Source: Oscillospiraceae bacterium (GTDB lineage: Bacteria; Bacillota; Clostridia; Oscillospirales; Ruminococcaceae). Taken from it: 64,000 bases of DNA. Position 1 is the stretch's first letter; every line of letters starts with the position of its first letter. Shown one piece after another: positions 21,476 to 32,080 of this stretch. Position numbers and translations under genes: made by a program. The notes under the pieces are model-generated. The model saw only the letters and a program-made list of their open reading frames with translations. It was not told the DNA's origin and searched no databases. The stretch spans positions 1 through 64,000 of the forward strand of contig JAGAKZ010000015.1 of the NCBI GenBank assembly GCA_017848115.1. Direction: 5' to 3'.

Positions 21476-22849
<1,374 letters not shown>

Positions 22850-22916: not shown

Positions 22917-22947
22917 TGTAGCTTTTTTTTGATTTGTAAGGTATTAT
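22917..22947 (+). promoter_or_regulatory. Shared upstream element of the YGPP-repeat genes, copy 1
   Basis: TGTAGC, 18 bases, GTATTAT. The same words with the same spacing occur before the second YGPP-repeat gene (24716-24746), both followed by ATTCATTC. Probably a promoter: TATTAT fits a -10 box, while TGTAGC is not a standard -35, which suggests a dedicated sigma factor or activator. Confidence 0.6.
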
Positions 22948-23012
22948 TAATATAGGTGTATGATTCATTCGTTAATTTTCATTTAAAATTTTTTTAAAGA
23001 GAGGTTTTGTTT

Positions 23013-23606
23013 ATGAAAAAGACTAAAAAGACACTTATGACTGCGGCAGTTCTTACTGCGGCCGCAATGAGTTCTCATAATGTGAAAACTGTAGGTGTTG
23101 CTATGGCACCTGTTTACGGACCGCCACCTGCAACCACAGTTACAACAATGAATACAACAATAAGCACTGTTTACGGACCGCCGGTAGCTATCTCAACTAC
23201 TGCTGACGAAGAAGTAACAGCAGTTTCATCACAGGAAGAATATATTGAAACGACAAACAGCCCTCTTGCCGGAGTTTACGGGCCACCGCCTGCGTATACA
23301 ACTGTTACTGATGAAGCCGAGGTTACGACAGTTCCTGTTATATCGGAAGAAGAATATACACAGACTACCGATGATGTTGTATGTGTATACGGACCACCTG
23401 ATGTATTTTATGATGATGGTGATGTAAATATGGACACTCAGATAAATATTGCCGATTATAATCTGATTCTGAGTGCGGCACAAGGTGAAGATATCGGTTA
23501 TTCTCCGGAACGCCTTGCAGACGTTGATAATAACGGTGTTGTTGATGCTGATGATGTTGAAATCATGCGTAAATATCTGACCGGACAGATAGATTCAATG
23601 GAGTAA
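23013..23606 (+). CDS. YGPP-repeat protein with C-terminal dockerin; candidate radical SAM substrate
   Basis: A 197-residue protein from the ATG with AGAGAGG upstream. The N-terminal 34 residues (MKKTKKTLMTAAVLTAAAMS, then SHNV...GVAMAP) are nearly identical to those of the protein at 24801 and look like a signal or leader peptide. Four YGPP motifs follow (Tyr35, 54, 89 and 126), set in Thr/Val/Glu-rich linkers with EEY or EEEY segments. The C-terminus (about 136-192) is a dockerin-like pair of calcium loops: GDVNMDTQINIADYNLIL and DVDNNGVVDADDVEIMRKYL. It lies 29 bases ahead of the radical SAM gene, so probably cotranscribed. That it is modified by that enzyme is inferred from position and repeated motif. 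Confidence 0.75.
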   Translation: MKKTKKTLMTAAVLTAAAMSSHNVKTVGVAMAPVYGPPPATTVTTMNTTISTVYGPPVAISTTADEEVTAVSSQEEYIETTNSPLAGVYGPPPAYTTVTDEAEVTTVPVISEEEYTQTTDDVVCVYGPPDVFYDDGDVNMDTQINIADYNLILSAAQGEDIGYSPERLADVDNNGVVDADDVEIMRKYLTGQIDSME

Positions 23607-23635
23607 TACTGAGAAAAATAACAGGAGGATAAAAA

Positions 23636-24688
23636 ATGTTAAACCCAAATTTGAAAATTCGTGATATGCGTAAGCAGTCAGCAGAGCAGAAAAATGTACT
23701 CAGAAATCTTTTTCTTGAGTTGACAGTAAGGTGCAATGAACGTTGTCTTCATTGCGGAAGCAGTTGTGGAGATGTAAAAGCCGATGAAATGACTACACAG
23801 CAGTATCATACTATTCTGAAGCAGATTTCCGGGGACTTTGATGTAAATACTTTTACGCTGTGTATAACAGGCGGAGAACCGCTTCTCAGAACAGATTTTT
23901 TTGATATCATGTCTGATGCAAATGATATGGGTTATCTCTGGGGCATGACTTCAAACGGTATACTTATAACTCCTGAAGTAGCTAAGGATCTTAAGAGATG
24001 CGGTATGAAAACTATATCTATAAGTATTGACGGTACTCAGGAAACACATGATGCATTCAGAAGAACTCCGGGTGGCTGGCAGAAGGCAATGGACGGAGTT
24101 GAAAATCTTATAAAAACAGGCGGATTCAAGCATATTCAGGTGACAACTGTTGTTACGCATGAAAATATTGGTCAGCTTGACGAGCTTTACAAGATATTCA
24201 GCGAAATGGACATAGATTCATGGAGAGTTATAAATATAGACCCTATAGGCAGAGCAAAACAGTATCCTCATTTACTTATGACAGATGAAGATTTTGTACG
24301 TATGTTTGAGTTTATAAGAAACAAGAGAATGGCAGGAGAGCCAGTAACATACGGTTGCGAACATTATCTCGGTCTTGAATACGAAAGAGAAGTGCGTGAC
24401 TGGTATTTCCACTGTGTAGCAGGTAAGGAAATAGCAAGTATCATGAGCAATGGTGATATCACAGCCTGTCTTGACATTGAACGCAGACCTGAATTTATAA
24501 TGGGTAACATTTTCAAGGATCGTTTCAAAGATGTATGGGAAAATGGTTTCCAGATATTCAGAAAAGGTCTTTCATGCGGAAAATGCGAATCTTGCAGTGA
24601 AATGGAATTCTGCAAGGGCGGAGCATATCACACATGGAACTTTGACGAAAACCGTCCGAATATTTGTTTTAAAGATGTGTTGTTTTAA
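23636..24688 (+). CDS. Radical SAM/SPASM peptide maturase
   Basis: A 350-residue enzyme. The radical SAM motif CNERCLHC (Cys33, 37, 40) follows ELTVR, and TGGEPLLR is the GGE-type SAM-binding segment. The C-terminal SPASM-type part holds CVAGKEIASIMSNGDITACL (about 261-280) and a Cys cluster CGKCESCSEMEFCKGG (about 321-336), expected to bind auxiliary Fe-S clusters. This layout is typical of enzymes that modify ribosomal peptides. It lies between two genes whose products share a leader-like N-terminus and repeated YGPP motifs. From memory, NCBI/TIGRFAM models name a FibroRumin radical SAM maturase class in Fibrobacter and Ruminococcus; this may belong to it, which an HMM search would settle. 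The chemistry is unknown. AGGAGG precedes the ATG. Confidence 0.88.
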   Translation: MLNPNLKIRDMRKQSAEQKNVLRNLFLELTVRCNERCLHCGSSCGDVKADEMTTQQYHTILKQISGDFDVNTFTLCITGGEPLLRTDFFDIMSDANDMGYLWGMTSNGILITPEVAKDLKRCGMKTISISIDGTQETHDAFRRTPGGWQKAMDGVENLIKTGGFKHIQVTTVVTHENIGQLDELYKIFSEMDIDSWRVINIDPIGRAKQYPHLLMTDEDFVRMFEFIRNKRMAGEPVTYGCEHYLGLEYEREVRDWYFHCVAGKEIASIMSNGDITACLDIERRPEFIMGNIFKDRFKDVWENGFQIFRKGLSCGKCESCSEMEFCKGGAYHTWNFDENRPNICFKDVLF

Positions 24689-24715
24689 TTTTTTTATCTG
24701 ATTTACAAAAAAATC

Positions 24716-24746
24716 TGTAGCTTTTTTCATATTTAAAAAGTATTAT
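24716..24746 (+). promoter_or_regulatory. Shared upstream element of the YGPP-repeat genes, copy 2
   Basis: TGTAGC, 18 bases, GTATTAT, matching copy 1 at 22917-22947 in both words and spacing. The start codon lies about 55 bases downstream, against about 65 for copy 1. Confidence 0.6.
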
Positions 24747-24800
24747 ATTTGAATGGTCAGTATTCATTCAGAAAAATAAATCATGAAAGGAAGTATATTG

Positions 24801-25409
24801 ATGAAAAAGACTAAAAGCACACTTATGACCGCTGCGATTCTTACAGCTGCTGCAATGGGTTCGCATAATGTCAATGCAGTAGGTGTTGCGATGGCTCCTG
24901 TATACGGACCACCGCCGGCATACACAACTACACCTGATGGGGACGAATATACAGAGATGACAACTACAACTACACCTGTATACGGACCACCGCCGGCATA
25001 CACAACTACACCTGATGAGGACGAATATACAGAGATGACAACTACAACTACACCTGTATACGGACCACCGCCGGCATATACTACGGTTACTGAAGAAGAG
25101 GAATATCCTCCATTTCCAACAACTCAGCCTGCATACGGACCGCCGGTGGCATATACTACGGTTACTGAAGAAGAGGAATATCCTCAGCCTGCATACGGAC
25201 CGCCTTCAGCGTTCTATGATAAAGGCGATATCAATATGGACAATATAATTAATATTGCCGACTATAATAAAATGCTTAGTGCAGTTCAGGGCGAAGAATT
25301 GTACAGTGCAGAAGAACTGGCTGATATTGACAACGACGGTTCTGTTGACGAAGATGATGTTGACGCAATGCGTAAGTATCTTACAGGTCAGACAGATTCT
25401 CTGGGATAA
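24801..25409 (+). CDS. Second YGPP-repeat protein with C-terminal dockerin; candidate radical SAM substrate
   Basis: A 202-residue protein. The ATG at 24801 has AAAGGAAG upstream; the earlier in-frame ATG at 24783 overlaps that ribosome site. The first 40 residues match the partner at 23013 almost exactly. Five YGPP motifs follow (Tyr35, 61, 87, 112, 132) at spacings of 26, 26, 25 and 20 residues, as YGPPPAYTT units linked by DEYTEMTTTTTP or EEEEYP. The C-terminal dockerin-like module (about 142-198) has GDINMDNIINIADYNKML and DIDNDGSVDEDDVDAMRKYL. It has its own copy of the shared upstream element. Likely exported and docked; modification by the adjacent radical SAM enzyme is an inference. 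Confidence 0.75.
   Translation: MKKTKSTLMTAAILTAAAMGSHNVNAVGVAMAPVYGPPPAYTTTPDGDEYTEMTTTTTPVYGPPPAYTTTPDEDEYTEMTTTTTPVYGPPPAYTTVTEEEEYPPFPTTQPAYGPPVAYTTVTEEEEYPQPAYGPPSAFYDKGDINMDNIINIADYNKMLSAVQGEELYSAEELADIDNDGSVDEDDVDAMRKYLTGQTDSLG
24901..25093 (+). repeat. 78-base tandem repeat inside the second YGPP gene
   Basis: Units start at 24901, 24979 and 25057 (each at TATACGGACCACCGCCGGCA). The first two units differ at one base; the third is partial. A second repeated block (GCATATACTACGGTTACTGA...) occurs at about 25074 and 25149. Near identity points to recent expansion of the YGPP unit. Confidence 0.9.
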
Positions 25410-25429
25410 TATCAAAATACATCTGATAG

Positions 25430-25467
25430 ATAAGTTGCTGATTTTTACAGTCGGCAACTTATTTTTT
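25430..25467 (+). terminator. Terminator after the second YGPP gene
   Basis: ATAAGTTGC, 15-base loop, GCAACTTAT, then a T run. Confidence 0.9.
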
Positions 25468-25549: not shown

Positions 25550-27160
25550 ATGAATAAAATAAATAATTTCAGCCTGTTGCAACCTGAGGGCGAGTACGAT
25601 TACTTTACACTTGATGAAAATGCAATAAATGATTTGTCTTTGCAGTATCTTATTGAAAATATAGTTGACGAACCAAAAGAATATGAAAATTTCAGAAATA
25701 TTCTTATAAAAATGCCCGTTGATGAAAAGGTGATAAAATACCGACAGGAAATTTATCAGGACTTAAAAAACAACATTGATGTATGCAAGGATTTTATAAG
25801 GATATTCAATGAAATGAAATTCAATCTCCTTGACAGAGAATGTGTTTCGGAAACAAAATCGAGTATATGGGATCTGGTTTCAAGGCTGAAATATCTTGAA
25901 ACATATGCAGGTTCGATTATTGAACTAAAAAAAATCTTTGATAAGGGAAATTTTCAGTCAGAGGGAATGAAAAAATTTTCTCAGGCTATAATTAATGTTT
26001 ACAACGATAACGGATTCAAGGAATTTTCAGAGGATATGAAGGAACTTGGCGAAGATATTTCGGGGATAGGAAGTATTACTTTAGGTGTAAACCTTGATGA
26101 AAGACTGTCACCTGTTGAAGTCGGTATAGTATCTGTAAATCAGGGCTGGTTCAGTCAGCAGGGAATACTTGAAAGATTTCTGAAATTTCATAAGGATAAT
26201 GTATCCGATGACGGCACAAGAGGACTTAATTCGTACACAATGATAGCACATCCGAAAGTACATGGTGAAGTAAATCCGCTTATGAACAATCTTACAAAGA
26301 TAGTTGAAAAAATGCTTTCTTCCACTACATCAAATCTGAAAAATATCCTGAAAAAATATGTAGATATAAGCGGTATGGTTCTTATTAATATTTTAAACGA
26401 TATTATGTTTTATTCGTACTTTACAGAACTCGAACAGAAAGTTACCGCACTTGGTCTTCCTGCTTCTATTCCGGGTACATCTGATGAAGGAAGTACATTT
26501 TCAGACTTCTATAATATACGACTTGCTATAGGACGTATGAAAGGAAAAGTTGAAAATGATATAGTCTGCAATGATTTTGAATTTAATAAAAATCAGCAGG
26601 TCGTTATACTTACAGGTCCGAACAGGGGCGGAAAGACAATTTTTACTCAGGCTATAGGTCTTGTGCATCTCTTTTTCCAGCATGGTGTATTTGTTCCGTG
26701 CAGACAGGGAAATATACAGGTGTGTGACGGAATATACACACATTTTCCGGCAGATGAAAATATGACTATGGCACTTGGACGACTTGGTGAAGAAGCGCAG
26801 AGATTTAAGGAAATATGCGTAAGAGCAACACCTAAAAGCCTTCTTTTATTCAATGAATCATTTGCCACTACAAGCCATACCGAATCACTGTACATAGCAA
26901 CAGATGCACTCAGATATATATGCTGTCTTGGAACAAGAACCTGTTTTAATACACATATGCACGAGCTTGCCGATAACTCCGAAGAACTCAGCAATTCTGA
27001 AAAAGCAGTCTGCAAAGCAGTAAGTGTAGTTATGGGGTGCGAAGGAGAGGACAGTTATAAAATATTCTTTAAAAAACCCGATGGCAGAAGTTATGCTCAC
27101 AGGATAGCACAAAAATACGGAATAACATTTGAACAGCTTTCAGAGCGGTTGAACAAGTAG
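25550..27160 (+). CDS. MutS-family ATPase without mismatch-recognition domain
   Basis: A 536-residue protein. The C-terminal half is a MutS-type ABC ATPase: Walker A TGPNRGGKTIFTQAIG (about 358-373), then MALGRLGEEAQRFKE, Walker B-like SLLLFNESFATTSHTES and a FNTHMHELAD switch region. The N-terminal half is helical, like the MutS core and lever region. The N-terminal mismatch-binding domain of true MutS is absent, and no Smr nuclease domain is present. Such short MutS relatives are common in Firmicutes; their role (recombination intermediates or other DNA structures) is unsettled. AAAGGAAG precedes the ATG. It stands between terminators, probably as its own unit. Confidence 0.85.
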   Translation: MNKINNFSLLQPEGEYDYFTLDENAINDLSLQYLIENIVDEPKEYENFRNILIKMPVDEKVIKYRQEIYQDLKNNIDVCKDFIRIFNEMKFNLLDRECVSETKSSIWDLVSRLKYLETYAGSIIELKKIFDKGNFQSEGMKKFSQAIINVYNDNGFKEFSEDMKELGEDISGIGSITLGVNLDERLSPVEVGIVSVNQGWFSQQGILERFLKFHKDNVSDDGTRGLNSYTMIAHPKVHGEVNPLMNNLTKIVEKMLSSTTSNLKNILKKYVDISGMVLINILNDIMFYSYFTELEQKVTALGLPASIPGTSDEGSTFSDFYNIRLAIGRMKGKVENDIVCNDFEFNKNQQVVILTGPNRGGKTIFTQAIGLVHLFFQHGVFVPCRQGNIQVCDGIYTHFPADENMTMALGRLGEEAQRFKEICVRATPKSLLLFNESFATTSHTESLYIATDALRYICCLGTRTCFNTHMHELADNSEELSNSEKAVCKAVSVVMGCEGEDSYKIFFKKPDGRSYAHRIAQKYGITFEQLSERLNK

Positions 27161-27222: not shown

Positions 27223-27289
27223 ATAATTAGCTGTTAATTTTGTATAAATTATACTTATTTTCTTGCATATCAGGGGGCTGTATTGCATT

Positions 27290-28774
27290 ATGAAAAATTT
27301 AAAGCAGATTTTAAGTAGCGTGGTTTGTTCCGGTCTGATTTTTGCACAGGCGGTTTCAGCGGAAATAAGCACGTTTTATAAAGGAGATTTTGACAATAAC
27401 GGAGTTATTGATATTTCTGATATCACTCATATGTGTGAATACCTTTGCGGAAAAGGGAGTACGCCTGACAGCATTACAGCGGATATAACAGGTGATGACA
27501 GGACTGATATCGCCGATCTTGTTGCACTGAGGGCAGAGGCTATAGGACAGTACGATATGGATAGTGAAGACGGTAAATTTATTGATGCACCTGTTGCAAA
27601 GATAGAAACGTCGCTTTCTTCACAGGGTGAGCCGTCACTTGTCATATTTTGTGTGGAATTTCCCGACTGTAAGTATTCGCGTGATTTTACAGCGGAGATG
27701 GTAGACGATATTGCTTTTGGTGATGCCAATGAGGAGTCGGAGTATTTTCCGTTTGAGAGTATGACGGCATTTTACGAGAGGTCTTCAAAAGGTGTTATGC
27801 ACCTTACAGGCAGGACTTTCAGATATACTGCCCAAAATCCGATTTCTTATTATACAGATGATCTTGATTTGCTTGCATATGAATGTTTTAAATTTTTTGA
27901 GGACAGTGTTGATTTTAAAAAATATGATACAGATGATGACGGTGTAATAGATGCCTCACTTTTTGCCGTTCCCGAATCAGCTGATGAAAACTACTGGTGG
28001 CCGTATTCCATACCTTTCAGTACTGATAACTGCAGGATCGACGGTCTGAAAATAGGTCATATGATAACAGGTAATGTTGCTCCGTATGATGTAGTTAATT
28101 TCAACAGCAGTTATCTTCATGAAATGGGTCACTGCATGGGTATTCCCGATTATTATCTTTATTATTCGGAAGATGACTATGAGGGCATGAACGGAAATGC
28201 AGGTCCGGAACTTATGGACGCCGATGCATTTTCGGATTTCGGTGCATTTTCAAAACTAATGCTTGGATGGTACAGAAAAGAGCAGATAAATGTATTTGAA
28301 AAATCAATGAAGAAAGCGGTTTACAAACTTCATGACGCACAAAGCGAAAATGGAAACTGCATCATTATTCCTCATGGAAAACCTGATAAAAATTATTTTT
28401 CGGAGTATATGATAATAGAATACATAACCGAAAACGGAAATAACAGTGTTCTTAATACACTTTCATGGCAGAGCATGAAACCCGGAATACGTATCATGCA
28501 CATAAAAGCCGATTTTGTAAAAGGTCCGTGGTGGAATTATTTCAAGTATGAAAACGGTTCTGAAGAAACAGGTTATGATGATGAGGGAATAAGACTTCTC
28601 CGACTTGTAAACGACGGAAAAGATCCTTTTGATTCAGGGGATATTGTAGACAGCTCCGTTTCGGGATTTGGCTGGTATGACGTTTATGGAAATGAAACGC
28701 TTGATGTTGGTGTGAAGGTACATATAGGTGAGATAGAGGACGATTGTTATACGATAACAGTATCGTGTGAATGA
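27290..28774 (+). CDS. Secreted M6-type metalloprotease with N-terminal dockerin
   Basis: A 494-residue protein. The ATG at 27290 has AGGGGG upstream; an earlier in-frame TTG is less likely. Signal peptide about 1-24 (ending AVSA), then a dockerin-like module directly at the mature N-terminus (about 30-85; GDFDNNGVIDISDITHMCEY, DITGDDRTDIADLVALRAE). The rest is an M6-family metalloprotease domain with the zinc motif HEMGHCMGIPD (His277, Glu278, His281). The central part (FPFESMTAFYERSSKG) and YDTDDDGVIDASLFAV fit immune-inhibitor-A-like proteases. An N-terminal rather than C-terminal dockerin is unusual. The substrate is unknown; it could process cellulosomal or dietary proteins. Confidence 0.85.
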   Translation: MKNLKQILSSVVCSGLIFAQAVSAEISTFYKGDFDNNGVIDISDITHMCEYLCGKGSTPDSITADITGDDRTDIADLVALRAEAIGQYDMDSEDGKFIDAPVAKIETSLSSQGEPSLVIFCVEFPDCKYSRDFTAEMVDDIAFGDANEESEYFPFESMTAFYERSSKGVMHLTGRTFRYTAQNPISYYTDDLDLLAYECFKFFEDSVDFKKYDTDDDGVIDASLFAVPESADENYWWPYSIPFSTDNCRIDGLKIGHMITGNVAPYDVVNFNSSYLHEMGHCMGIPDYYLYYSEDDYEGMNGNAGPELMDADAFSDFGAFSKLMLGWYRKEQINVFEKSMKKAVYKLHDAQSENGNCIIIPHGKPDKNYFSEYMIIEYITENGNNSVLNTLSWQSMKPGIRIMHIKADFVKGPWWNYFKYENGSEETGYDDEGIRLLRLVNDGKDPFDSGDIVDSSVSGFGWYDVYGNETLDVGVKVHIGEIEDDCYTITVSCE

Positions 28775-28861: not shown

Positions 28862-29602
28862 TTAATCAAAAGAAGTAATATCAAGTGAGATGTACTGTTT
28901 AAGTCTTGCAAGGTCAGCGAGGTTGGTGTTGCCGTCTTTGGTGGTGTCGGATACATTATCCGGAATAAAGCTTAAATCTTTGTCGCCTATCAATGAGAGA
29001 GAAAGTTCAGTAAGGTCAGTGAGATCAACTTTTCCGTCAATGTTCATGTCACCGCATTTTAAATTCTGGGCATCGGTGTTTGCACAAAATAAAATGGAAG
29101 TTGCAAGTACAAATTCACTTTTTTCAAAAGATTTTACGAGTTTTATAAGTTCTGCATTGGTGAGATTTGAAACATTAATCCCAAGATGCTGACTAAAATT
29201 ATCACTGTGAAGATACTCAATAAATTCCGGATAGTATTCATATTCTTTTTGATAATCAGAAGACATATAAGTAACATCTGCTATCTGTATTGAGTCATCT
29301 ATACCAAAATCTTTTGCTGTCCAGACTTTATTTATTTCGCTGTATTTCTTTTTGATTACGACCTGAAGTCCTTCGGCACCGTATATGTATGACTTTTCAA
29401 TTGTTTTGTTTTCTATGAGTTCATCATTTAAATATTTTTCATTTTCTTTAAATTCTTCACACATAAGCATAACAGACTCTACTCCGATACTACTGGTATT
29501 CGGTACACGTTCATCGAGAGCGGAAACGTTAAAGCTTAATGAAGAAATGCAGGAGATTATTGCTGTTGCCAAAGCTAATGATTTCACTTTTCTTTTTTTC
29601 AT
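28862..29602 (-). CDS. Dockerin protein, tandem copy A
   Basis: A 246-residue secreted protein. Signal peptide about 1-28 (LALATAIISCISSLSFNVSA). The middle (about 30-175) is a helical and beta domain of no recognised family, with KSYIYGAEGLQVVIKKKYSE and ADVTYMSSDYQKEY. The C-terminus (about 180-240) is a dockerin: CGDMNIDGKVDLTDLTELSL and DTTKDGNTNLADLARLKQYI. It is one of a tandem pair with 29914. The two share the signal peptide and dockerin almost base for base but differ in the middle, and have the same length. AGGTGA precedes the ATG. Confidence 0.85.
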   Translation of the reverse strand: MKKRKVKSLALATAIISCISSLSFNVSALDERVPNTSSIGVESVMLMCEEFKENEKYLNDELIENKTIEKSYIYGAEGLQVVIKKKYSEINKVWTAKDFGIDDSIQIADVTYMSSDYQKEYEYYPEFIEYLHSDNFSQHLGINVSNLTNAELIKLVKSFEKSEFVLATSILFCANTDAQNLKCGDMNIDGKVDLTDLTELSLSLIGDKDLSFIPDNVSDTTKDGNTNLADLARLKQYISLDITSFD

Positions 29603-29913: not shown

Positions 29914-30654
29914 TTAATCAAAAGAAGTAATGTCAAGTGAGATGTACTGTTTAAGTCTTGCAAGGTCAGCGAGGTTGGTGTTGCCGTCTTTGGTGGTGTC
30001 GGATACATTATCCGGAATAAAGCTTAAATCTTTGTCGCCTATCAATGAGAGAGAAAGTTCGGTAAGGTCAGTGAGATCAACTTTTCCGTCAATGTTCATG
30101 TCACCGCATTTTAAATCTTGTGTACTTGTAAGTGAATACATATGAATGTAAGTTGCCAAAACAACTCCGCTTTTTTGAAGTGATTTTATAAGTTTTATAA
30201 GTTCTGCATTACTAAGCCCCGAAACATTAATTGTAAGATTCTGATGAAAATCATCACTCTTAACATATTCAATAAATTCCGGATAATACTTGTATTTTTC
30301 CTCATAATCTGAACTTAGATAAGTAATATCCGCTATTTGTATCGAATCATCTATACCCAAATCTTTTGCTGTCCAGATTTTATTTACTTCACTATGTTTT
30401 TTCTGAATTAAAATCTGAACTCCGGTTGCTCCGGTAAAATACCGTTTATCAATTGATTTATTTGCTATAAGTTCATCATTCAGATATTGTTCACTTCCTA
30501 TAAGTTGTTCATGTACGCTTAACACTGATTCTATACCGATGCCACTGGTATTCGGTACACGTTCATCGAGAGCAGAAACGTTAAAGCTTAATGAAGAAAT
30601 GCAGGAGATTATTGCTGTTGCCAAAGCTAATGATTTCACTTTTCTTTTTTTCAT
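29914..30654 (-). CDS. Dockerin protein, tandem copy B
   Basis: A 246-residue paralog of 28862, with the same signal peptide and the same dockerin. The middle domain keeps the frame of the other copy (DERVPNTS, LNDELI, WTAKDLGIDDSIQIADITYL, KYYPEFIEYV, AELIKLIKSLQKS) while many surface positions differ (for example RYFTGATGVQILIQKKHSE). The shared skeleton shows one fold; the changes look spread out, not like decay. The function is unknown. It has its own promoter and terminator, so the copies are independently expressed. Confidence 0.85.
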   Translation of the reverse strand: MKKRKVKSLALATAIISCISSLSFNVSALDERVPNTSGIGIESVLSVHEQLIGSEQYLNDELIANKSIDKRYFTGATGVQILIQKKHSEVNKIWTAKDLGIDDSIQIADITYLSSDYEEKYKYYPEFIEYVKSDDFHQNLTINVSGLSNAELIKLIKSLQKSGVVLATYIHMYSLTSTQDLKCGDMNIDGKVDLTDLTELSLSLIGDKDLSFIPDNVSDTTKDGNTNLADLARLKQYISLDITSFD

Positions 30655-30979: not shown

Positions 30980-31084
30980 TTTAAGTGTAAAGAAGTATAA
31001 TCTTTTATTTATTTTTTGATGATGTTGTTTTAACTGGAAAATATAGTATATGATTTTTTGATGATTTATAAGGAGCTGATTTTT

Positions 31085-32080
31085 ATGAAAAATAAAAAAT
31101 CTTTGTTAGTGTGTTCGTTAATGTCATTGTCATTAGCATTTTCAAATGTTCTTATGACAGTAAATGCCGATGAAGTGCAGAATGTATCTGTAGTTGAAAA
31201 TACAGCACAGGATGTTATCGGATATGATAAGTCCGGAAATGCAGTATATGGCGGAGTTTATGATGTTATAGCCGGATTTTCAGAAGACGGTACACCTATC
31301 ATCGAAACATCTCCTTATAACAGGATAACAGGTGTGCCTGCGAGTAGAGCAAGCAATAACATTAAATATGATAATCTTGGGTTTAAGATTATCTTTGGTT
31401 CGCATGAAGAATTTGAAGGATTTGATGAAAAGGGAAATCCGATACTTTCTTATGATAAAGGACTATCAGACGGAACGAAAGGTATCCCTCTGATAGCTAT
31501 CGTTATGGCTTACGATAAAGACGGTGAAAAATGGCTAGCCGGTATCTGTGACAGAACAATGGGTGTTGATACGGAAGGTGATCCGGTGATATGGCATTAT
31601 GTTTTCGGTTCTGAACACCTTTCAAAATCCGTTCTCGGAGTTGATGCTGACGGAAATAAAATATATGGCGGTGTCTATGATGTACTGCTCGGATTTAATG
31701 AGGACGGTACACCCGATATAGTGACATCTCCTTATAACAAAATAACAGGCGTTCCGGAAAATCCTGTAGTTCTTGGCTATGATGATGCAGGGTATGTGAT
31801 ACTTGGTACAGAAGATGAAAAACTTGCCGGATTTGATGAAAAGGGAAATCCTGTTGTACTTAATGTTTCAGACGATATGCAGATAGCACTGGTTGAAACA
31901 GTAGGTGATATTAACGGTGACAGTAAGACCGAACTTACAGACCTTACCGAATTATCCTTGTATCTTATCGGAGATAAAGAGCTTTCAGACGATGAGTTAC
32001 TGCGTGCAGATGTAAACAGCGATGAAAAAGTAGACCTCGCCGACCTTGCTACACTTAAAATGAATATAGTAAATCCATAA
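31085..32080 (+). CDS. Secreted repeat protein with C-terminal dockerin
   Basis: About 331 residues from the ATG with AAGGAG upstream. Signal peptide about 1-28. The body consists of short repeats of the type G-D-x-x-GN-x-x-YGGVYDV-x-x-GF-x-EDGTP, then TSPYN-x-ITGVP, and GFDEKGNP; the VYGG...ITGVP unit occurs twice in full, about 165 residues apart. These Gly/Asp turns suggest a chain of beta-hairpins, possibly a surface or binding scaffold. The C-terminal dockerin (about 275-330) has GDINGDSKTELTDLTELSLY and DVNSDEKVDLADLATLKMNI. No enzymatic motif is seen. Confidence 0.75.
   Translation: MKNKKSLLVCSLMSLSLAFSNVLMTVNADEVQNVSVVENTAQDVIGYDKSGNAVYGGVYDVIAGFSEDGTPIIETSPYNRITGVPASRASNNIKYDNLGFKIIFGSHEEFEGFDEKGNPILSYDKGLSDGTKGIPLIAIVMAYDKDGEKWLAGICDRTMGVDTEGDPVIWHYVFGSEHLSKSVLGVDADGNKIYGGVYDVLLGFNEDGTPDIVTSPYNKITGVPENPVVLGYDDAGYVILGTEDEKLAGFDEKGNPVVLNVSDDMQIALVETVGDINGDSKTELTDLTELSLYLIGDKELSDDELLRADVNSDEKVDLADLATLKMNIVNP

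Follow-up and report, generated by a model that had tools for sequence, protein, structure and literature searches.

The window analysed here is a stretch of 64,000 nucleotides from an Oscillospiraceae bacterium (contig JAGAKZ010000015.1; genome 3.34 Mb, 81% complete), and the locus in question consists of three open reading frames (ORFs), all on the + strand: 23013–23606 (protein P1, 197 amino acids (aa)), 23636–24688 (a radical SAM/SPASM enzyme, 350 aa) and 24801–25409 (protein P2, 202 aa); P1 and P2 are counted from the ATG that begins MKKTK..., which lies some codons into the ORFs as listed. P1 and P2 are dockerin proteins with repeated Tyr-Gly-Pro-Pro (YGPP) units, and enzymes of this clade are strongly paired with such proteins across genomes. 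The explanation that we favour, and hold to be somewhat probable, is that a splicease-like enzyme would excise tyramine at the YG units of P1 and P2, and that the products would dock on a cellulosome, plausibly as protease traps.

P1 and P2 share 35 of their first 40 residues (compared by eye), and these N-termini (MKKTKKT... in P1) are signal-peptide-like and without Cys; both proteins are probably exported. P1 has four YGPP units and P2 has five; all 9 YGPP found in the six frames of the window (127,996 codons) fall within the two proteins, and a chance origin of the motif was thereby ruled out. The dockerin of P1 (23418–23579) scored 29.3 bits against the Pfam cut-off of 22.9; that of P2 (25221–25382) scored 22.5 bits in hmmscan, just under the cut-off, and 25.4 bits, above it, in the genome search. 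In these respects the sequence-only reading of this DNA, which had placed a CNERCLHC and SPASM-type enzyme between two genes with a near-identical N-terminus, four and five YGPP motifs and C-terminal dockerins, was borne out. The linkers separating the units are Thr/Glu-rich and of low complexity, and the units of P2 lie partly in a 78-base tandem repeat (24897–25106). A near-identical relative (L004), the enzyme of which is 100% identical to that of the window, has four YGPP units where P2 has five, so that unit number differs between close strains. No match of P1 or P2 to the lipoprotein profile TIGR04134 was found at E up to 1.

The enzyme contains the motif RCNERCLHCGS (Cys 33, 37 and 40; CGS after CxxxCxxC) and exceeds the Pfam cut-offs for both Radical_SAM (79.2 bits, cut-off 29.5) and SPASM (34.5 bits, cut-off 21.5). 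Of the 82 NCBIfam families matched, the best 25 were headed by TIGR04133 (rSAM_w_lipo; 284.8 bits, below its cut-off of 425), with MftC second (152.6 bits). The FibroRumin maturase is a radical SAM peptide maturase associated with ruminococci; its model, which had been suggested earlier as one that may cover the enzyme, was not among these best 25, a weaker match being possible. The AlphaFold model of the enzyme (mean pLDDT 91, pTM 0.89; both are confidence scores of the prediction) has its first barrel strand at residue 24, which leaves no room for an N-terminal RRE. The solved folds closest to it are the peptide maturases SkfB, SuiB and sactipeptide-type 5why/5wgg; such maturases carry an N-terminal RRE.

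Pairing of the enzyme with YGxP genes and the Tyr-Gly unit

Relatives of the enzyme were collected at three levels. In the class-wide search (391 genomes), 15 genomes besides the window's matched at E ≤1.2e-71 and the next start at 1.4e-41, which is a score gap; 20 of 297 genomes matched in the family-level search (1e-40) and 10 of 11 in the genus-level search (1e-60), the window's genome being included in both counts. A YGxP gene adjoins 42 of the 45 clade enzyme genes (YGPP in 36 of these) within limits of 1600 bases upstream and 600 downstream of the enzyme, and all 42 are also found within 600 bases. There are 44 loci for the 45 genes, L005 carrying two (L009 and L010 are close copies of each other); L015 (41% identity), where no enzyme frame was found by the script, is not among them, and the YGSP gene counted at L052 is 357 bases away from its enzyme. 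The three genes without an adjoining YGxP gene are those of L009, L010 and L054, a 41-aa frame with YGRP at L009 having been judged chance and not counted. SPASM enzymes outside the clade of CGS enzymes (those with CGS after the radical SAM motif) served as controls: none of 8, from 6 loci that happened to be fetched, has a YGxP gene adjoining (600-base limit), and some YG was present in neighbouring frames of 6 of the 8, never as YGxP. The earlier proposal that the enzyme belongs with YGPP proteins was upheld by this survey, and we regard the pairing as strong with high confidence.

Enzymes lacking a YGPP gene, the kind of case that the sequence-only reading had itself regarded as adverse, were followed up in three genomes of the same genus (L020, L021, L023): no YGPP neighbour was present, and 2, 4 and 2 dockerin-YGPP genes, respectively, were found elsewhere in these genomes (Pfam dockerin confirmed in all 3 tested of the 8). 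The enzyme is associated with the YGPP proteins themselves, not with gene order alone. Neighbouring frames are common to L009 and L020, and the enzyme start is common to L010 and L021, so each pair probably represents the same locus. The paired YGxP genes span several Clostridia families, Bacteroidota and one spirochaete, the Bacteroidota and Treponema members having been reached via plasmid records only. In the single genome of the opposite kind that was looked at (G010, 88% complete, no enzyme match at E 1e-60), 5 YGPP-pattern matches were found on 5 contigs.

To examine the unit itself, neighbouring ORFs were gathered with a YGxP filter; one lying downstream of L033 and one double entry were taken out of the initial 55, which left 53 distinct ORFs. 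These hold 117 YGPP, 7 YGxP, 4 YGPx and 21 YG with neither Pro, some of the last possibly chance; 0 GPP preceded by a residue other than Tyr; 0 Y-PP with a residue other than Gly in second place. Several units from the window's genus have the form YGTYP, YGTMP, YGVV or YGCY. The residue preceding Tyr is Val in 78 of 115 YGxP sites (counts that retain the dropped L033 ORF and the double entry), the others being Ala, Leu, Met, Ile and more, and aromatic residues are frequent at +5 and +6 (Tyr = 0). Judged from these sequences, the constrained part of the unit is Tyr-Gly, with the preceding residue free and Pro-Pro dispensable.

The same unit was found on several types of carrier: dockerin proteins, TIGR04134 lipoproteins (the profile is matched by the partners at L055, L070, L071 and L072), DUF805 membrane proteins (L013, L035, L036, L040) and lipobox proteins (by eye). 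The partners at L028 and L029 share the N-terminus MKKTxKTALxAAAFAAA, which leads to a lipobox-like Cys in L029 and, without Cys, into a dockerin-like stretch in L028 (by eye); the comparison indicates that the anchor was swapped while the YG unit was kept. One relative, L096, comes from a contig filed as viral; its pheS/pheT-like flanks (by eye) make it probably chromosomal. The upstream partner at L096 (1970–2965) has Cys pairs like those of a zinc ribbon, the motif CLYGSP and, at its C-terminus, a membrane segment (all by eye), and is perhaps a further carrier type.

An alternative is that the YGPP repeats stay unmodified and have a structural or adhesive role, the enzyme having some other target. 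Linkers that are Thr/Glu-rich and of low complexity would suit this, as would the 78-base tandem repeat, since slippage can create such repeats; against it, a YGxP gene accompanies 42 of the 45 enzyme genes, on carriers of unrelated types in Clostridia, Bacteroidota and a spirochaete, and this account is considered very improbable.

Phylogeny of the enzyme and the predicted reaction

In the first tree (near-identical L004 and L016–L025 left out; the L001 enzyme entered as WINDOW), the CGS enzymes (HCGS; YCGS in L064, L065, L067 and L069) formed one clade of 59 of the 67 rows (support 100/99). In the second (42 chosen rows), they formed one clade of 31 rows (98/92), with MftC, NirJ, PqqE and TIGR04053 outside. 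Joining the window clade with MftC gave p 0.031 and with NirJ p 0.0002 in the topology test; an MftC-like grouping of the enzyme is disfavoured. Residues E28, G41, S42, T171, W196, G246, E250 and R254 are present in at least 20 of 21 window-clade rows, in at least 0.9 of 10 CGS rows on the side of TIGR04103 (to which we take the InterPro entry of PlpX, IPR026482, to correspond) and in at most 0.4 of 11 outgroup rows.

On that side of the CGS clade stands a Nostoc enzyme (L074; 853 bits against the TIGR04103 cut-off of 725), preceded by a Nif11 precursor ending ALYGLPPELF and followed by a 71-aa gene. According to passages of two papers (PMC11002830, PMC10533398), PlpX excises tyramine at Xaa-Tyr-Gly so that an alpha-ketoamide remains, and works with PlpY (a truncated RRE) on precursors with Nif11 or nitrile-hydratase-type leaders; the PlpXY splice tag is given in a passage of the second as PIRPLYGLPI (PMC10533398). 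The Nostoc layout resembles this PlpX/PlpY/precursor arrangement. TIGR04133 enzymes of Bacteroidota and Treponema were placed as sisters of L055 inside the larger CGS clade, and their lipoprotein partners carry CEYGSP, CEYGTP and CYGMP (YG[S/T/M]P at the lipobox Cys or shortly after it, by eye). One XYG chemistry throughout the whole CGS clade is the simplest reading.

Further small frames were noted beside CGS enzymes. Those of L065, L067 and L069, a sister group, adjoin or overlap frames with VYGGPEYF or VYAGPEYF, that of L069 having a zinc ribbon; annotated DUF1843 peptides adjoin the enzymes at L073 (1653–2366) and L075 (1787–2242), one being named as TIGR03913 type, and one peptide at each locus has PYG near its start, a possible relative of the XYG site.

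In favour of the splicease reading, X-Tyr-Gly with free X is the site of a PlpX-type splicease; the enzyme has the radical SAM and SPASM domains, X-Tyr-Gly partners (9 sites) and a place in the clade of a TIGR04103 enzyme. Excision of the splicease type is predicted to be the best single chemistry, and by analogy we put it at moderately better than even. The enzyme would act in the cytoplasm as a stand-alone (RRE-free) splicease-like maturase, and would recognise, in P1 and P2 chains that are still unfolded, the X-Tyr-Gly-(Pro-Pro) units; the 5'-deoxyadenosyl radical would lead to excision of the tyramine part of each Tyr, and the carbonyl of X (mostly Val) would be joined to the remaining carbonyl to give an internal alpha-keto-beta-amino acid. 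The expected mass change is −135.08 Da per site.

Several results weigh against this reading. The enzyme scored 118.4 bits with TIGR04103, far from the cut-off of 725 and lower than its scores with the mycofactocin MftC and heme-enzyme models. No PlpX sequence is among the rows of the trees; the test of the MftC alternative reached no better than p 0.031, and the clade was designated once the first tree was in view. The Nostoc 71-aa gene, taken to be PlpY-like from its size and position, gave no match to any NCBIfam family. The model of the window enzyme has no RRE domain, and no PlpY/RRE gene was found beside the enzyme at the locus, the rest of the genome not having been searched. The constancy of Tyr-Gly is biased towards YG by the filter used in collection; within the window clade, the neighbour at L054 is a small membrane protein with YGID, not YGxP. 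Outside the window clade, 3 of 14 CGS enzymes have a YGxP gene, the others showing YGI, YGG or YAG forms, and no small YG gene was found among the neighbours of L060, L061, L063 and L064; because of this low proportion, confidence in the full explanation was set slightly lower, a little above even.

A different radical reaction at YG could also be considered, one that would epimerise a residue, form a thioether, turn Tyr into a quinone or cross-link it to a neighbour (C-C or C-O). SPASM enzymes that differ widely in chemistry resemble one another in fold (the fold search, in which 50 of 205 strong matches were listed, is headed by SkfB, SuiB, a sactipeptide/ranthipeptide maturase and anSME), and no solved splicease structure was present among the sequence matches (11 + 4) or recognised in those best 50. 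MftC, the second NCBIfam match, acts on Tyr and the adjacent Val, as stated in a passage of PMC8326336; Val is also the usual residue before Tyr here, and the aromatics at +5 and +6 would fit a cross-link or similar reaction. Set against these points, a Tyr-Gly whose preceding residue is free is what spliceases act on, Tyr-Gly is the most fixed of all residues in the collected genes, and in the trees the enzyme falls on the XYG-precursor side, not with MftC; a reaction other than splicing is judged unlikely.

Cellulosome and possible function

The genome carrying the locus gave 13 cohesin matches, of which 12 exceed the cut-off; with 150 out of 235 candidates scored, its dockerin matches number at least 142. 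This makes docking of P1 and P2 plausible, as had been supposed from the window. With a Pfam dockerin each, and cohesins in the same genome, P1 and P2 have the marks of dockerin-bearing cellulosomal proteins; their binding is predicted. P1 and P2 would be exported via the N-terminal signal, and their dockerins would then bind cohesins of the cellulosome or cell surface. The electrophilic ketoamides would most likely be reversible covalent traps for serine or cysteine proteases, and would protect the enzyme complex or tune its own dockerin-borne proteases.

Protease inhibition is the leading candidate function of modified P1 and P2, held at somewhat less than even, because published statements and two kinds of gene neighbourhood agree. 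Spliceotides are called protease inhibitors in a passage of PMC11117315 (citing Scott 2022), and the ketoamide is described in part of PMC11002830 as a moiety used for protease inhibition. At L057 (269–1279), a protein with a chagasin domain (I42, a cysteine-protease-inhibitor family) has nine YG[V/I/A]P units after the domain and adjoins a 534-aa CGS-type radical SAM enzyme. At L009 (7103–9019) and L010 (7085–9067), the gene directly after that of the enzyme encodes a papain-type protease, which has a lectin-like domain and a dockerin of its own; L020 and L023 contain only the front part of the papain-type gene, in which no dockerin was seen. Such a papain-dockerin neighbour, where no YGPP gene adjoins, is possibly a protease-inhibitor pairing. 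It counts against inhibition that its basis consists of gene neighbourhood and of two sentences from other papers.

The modification could take place as proposed and serve another use: covalent attachment, signalling or proteolysis resistance of the linkers. The presence of several units per protein, and a range of carriers with lipoproteins and DUF805 membrane proteins among them, would suit a general role at the surface, and ketoamide reactivity serves labelling, according to a passage of PMC10533398. The chagasin and papain neighbours and the stated activity of spliceotides (passages of PMC11002830 and PMC11117315) favour proteases, and another use is given about one chance in three in our judgement.

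In its most extended form, the protease-trap reading would make the dockerin proteins of ruminococci multivalent covalent protease inhibitors produced by backbone splicing, guarding the cellulosome or pairing with dockerin-borne proteases, and in Clostridia and Bacteroidota at large lipoproteins and membrane proteins would bear the products of the same XYG chemistry; we offer this tentatively. An example unit would be Ala-Pro-Val-CO-CO-Gly-Pro-Pro, with several Val/Ala ketoamides per protein; the Ala-Pro-Val side is elastase-like on the P1 side (in the protease-subsite sense). If true, a post-translationally spliced backbone would be placed in a cellulosome, and XYG chemistry would be a general surface defence against proteolysis in Clostridia and Bacteroidota. 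From this reading follow a reaction and a mass shift to be expected of an enzyme family that is widespread and unassigned (TIGR04133 and relatives; Clostridia, Bacteroidota, Treponema). The carrier is separable from the site, one YG unit being found on dockerins, lipid anchors and membrane proteins, so that the substrate could be tested by one co-expression.

Surroundings of the locus and comparison with known systems

The gap between P1 and the enzyme gene is 29 bases. A 54-base element stands 5' of both P1 (22917–22970, +) and P2 (24716–24769, +) and contains TGTAGCTTTTTT, GTATTAT and ATTCATTC; as both genes share it, the promoter or regulatory region of P1 is probably present in a separate copy before P2. 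The sigma-70 scan of the upstream regions gave no promoter above chance (9 found, 11.0 expected). A weak terminator-like hairpin (25428–25464, +) lies 3' of P2 (1 found against 1.4 expected in shuffles). The locus is flanked by an enolase-like gene on the opposite strand (21476–22777; named by eye from the sequence) and by a gene for a MutS domain V protein (25550–27160), and between these two no plausible gene besides P1, the enzyme and P2 was found.

Further dockerin proteins are encoded downstream in the window: one with an HEMGH metalloprotease-like motif (27263–28774; by eye; no peptidase Pfam match), two similar proteins encoded in tandem (28862–29602 and 29914–30654, − strand), and one with repeated VYGGVYD/IYGGVYD segments (31058–32080), a candidate for a further XYG protein.

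The literature search turned up no paper in which dockerins are connected with peptide modification by radical SAM enzymes, and none that names FibroRumin, TIGR04133, TIGR04134 or the YGPP motif in this sense; Scott et al. 2022 (Chem) may contain an earlier account. The combination of dockerin and radical enzyme, a variation on known systems, is new as far as this search shows.

Dockerin-borne serpins and peptidases are documented in cellulosomes of C. thermocellum and R. flavefaciens (in a passage of PMC3573020), and are like P1 and P2 in being protease-related dockerin proteins, if these act as proposed; the difference is that the inhibitory group here would come from post-translational radical chemistry, not from the serpin fold. 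The TIGR04133/TIGR04134 pair of Bacteroidota and Treponema is close in that TIGR04133 is the best NCBIfam match of the window enzyme and its partners carry YG[S/T/M]P, and the L055 lipoprotein is a TIGR04134 member carrying MYGPPP; the window enzyme, however, stays below the cut-off of that family, a dockerin replaces the lipid anchor in P1 and P2, and there are multiple units instead of one. With the PlpX/PlpY splicease of Pleurocapsa (Morinaka 2018, as cited in passages of PMC11002830 and PMC10533398), the system has in common a radical SAM/SPASM enzyme, X-Tyr-Gly sites and membership of a clade that contains a TIGR04103 enzyme and excludes MftC, NirJ and PqqE, whereas the window enzyme lies far under the TIGR04103 cut-off and has no adjoining PlpY/RRE partner, and P1 and P2 are dockerin proteins of ~200 aa in which no Nif11 or nitrile-hydratase-type leader was seen.

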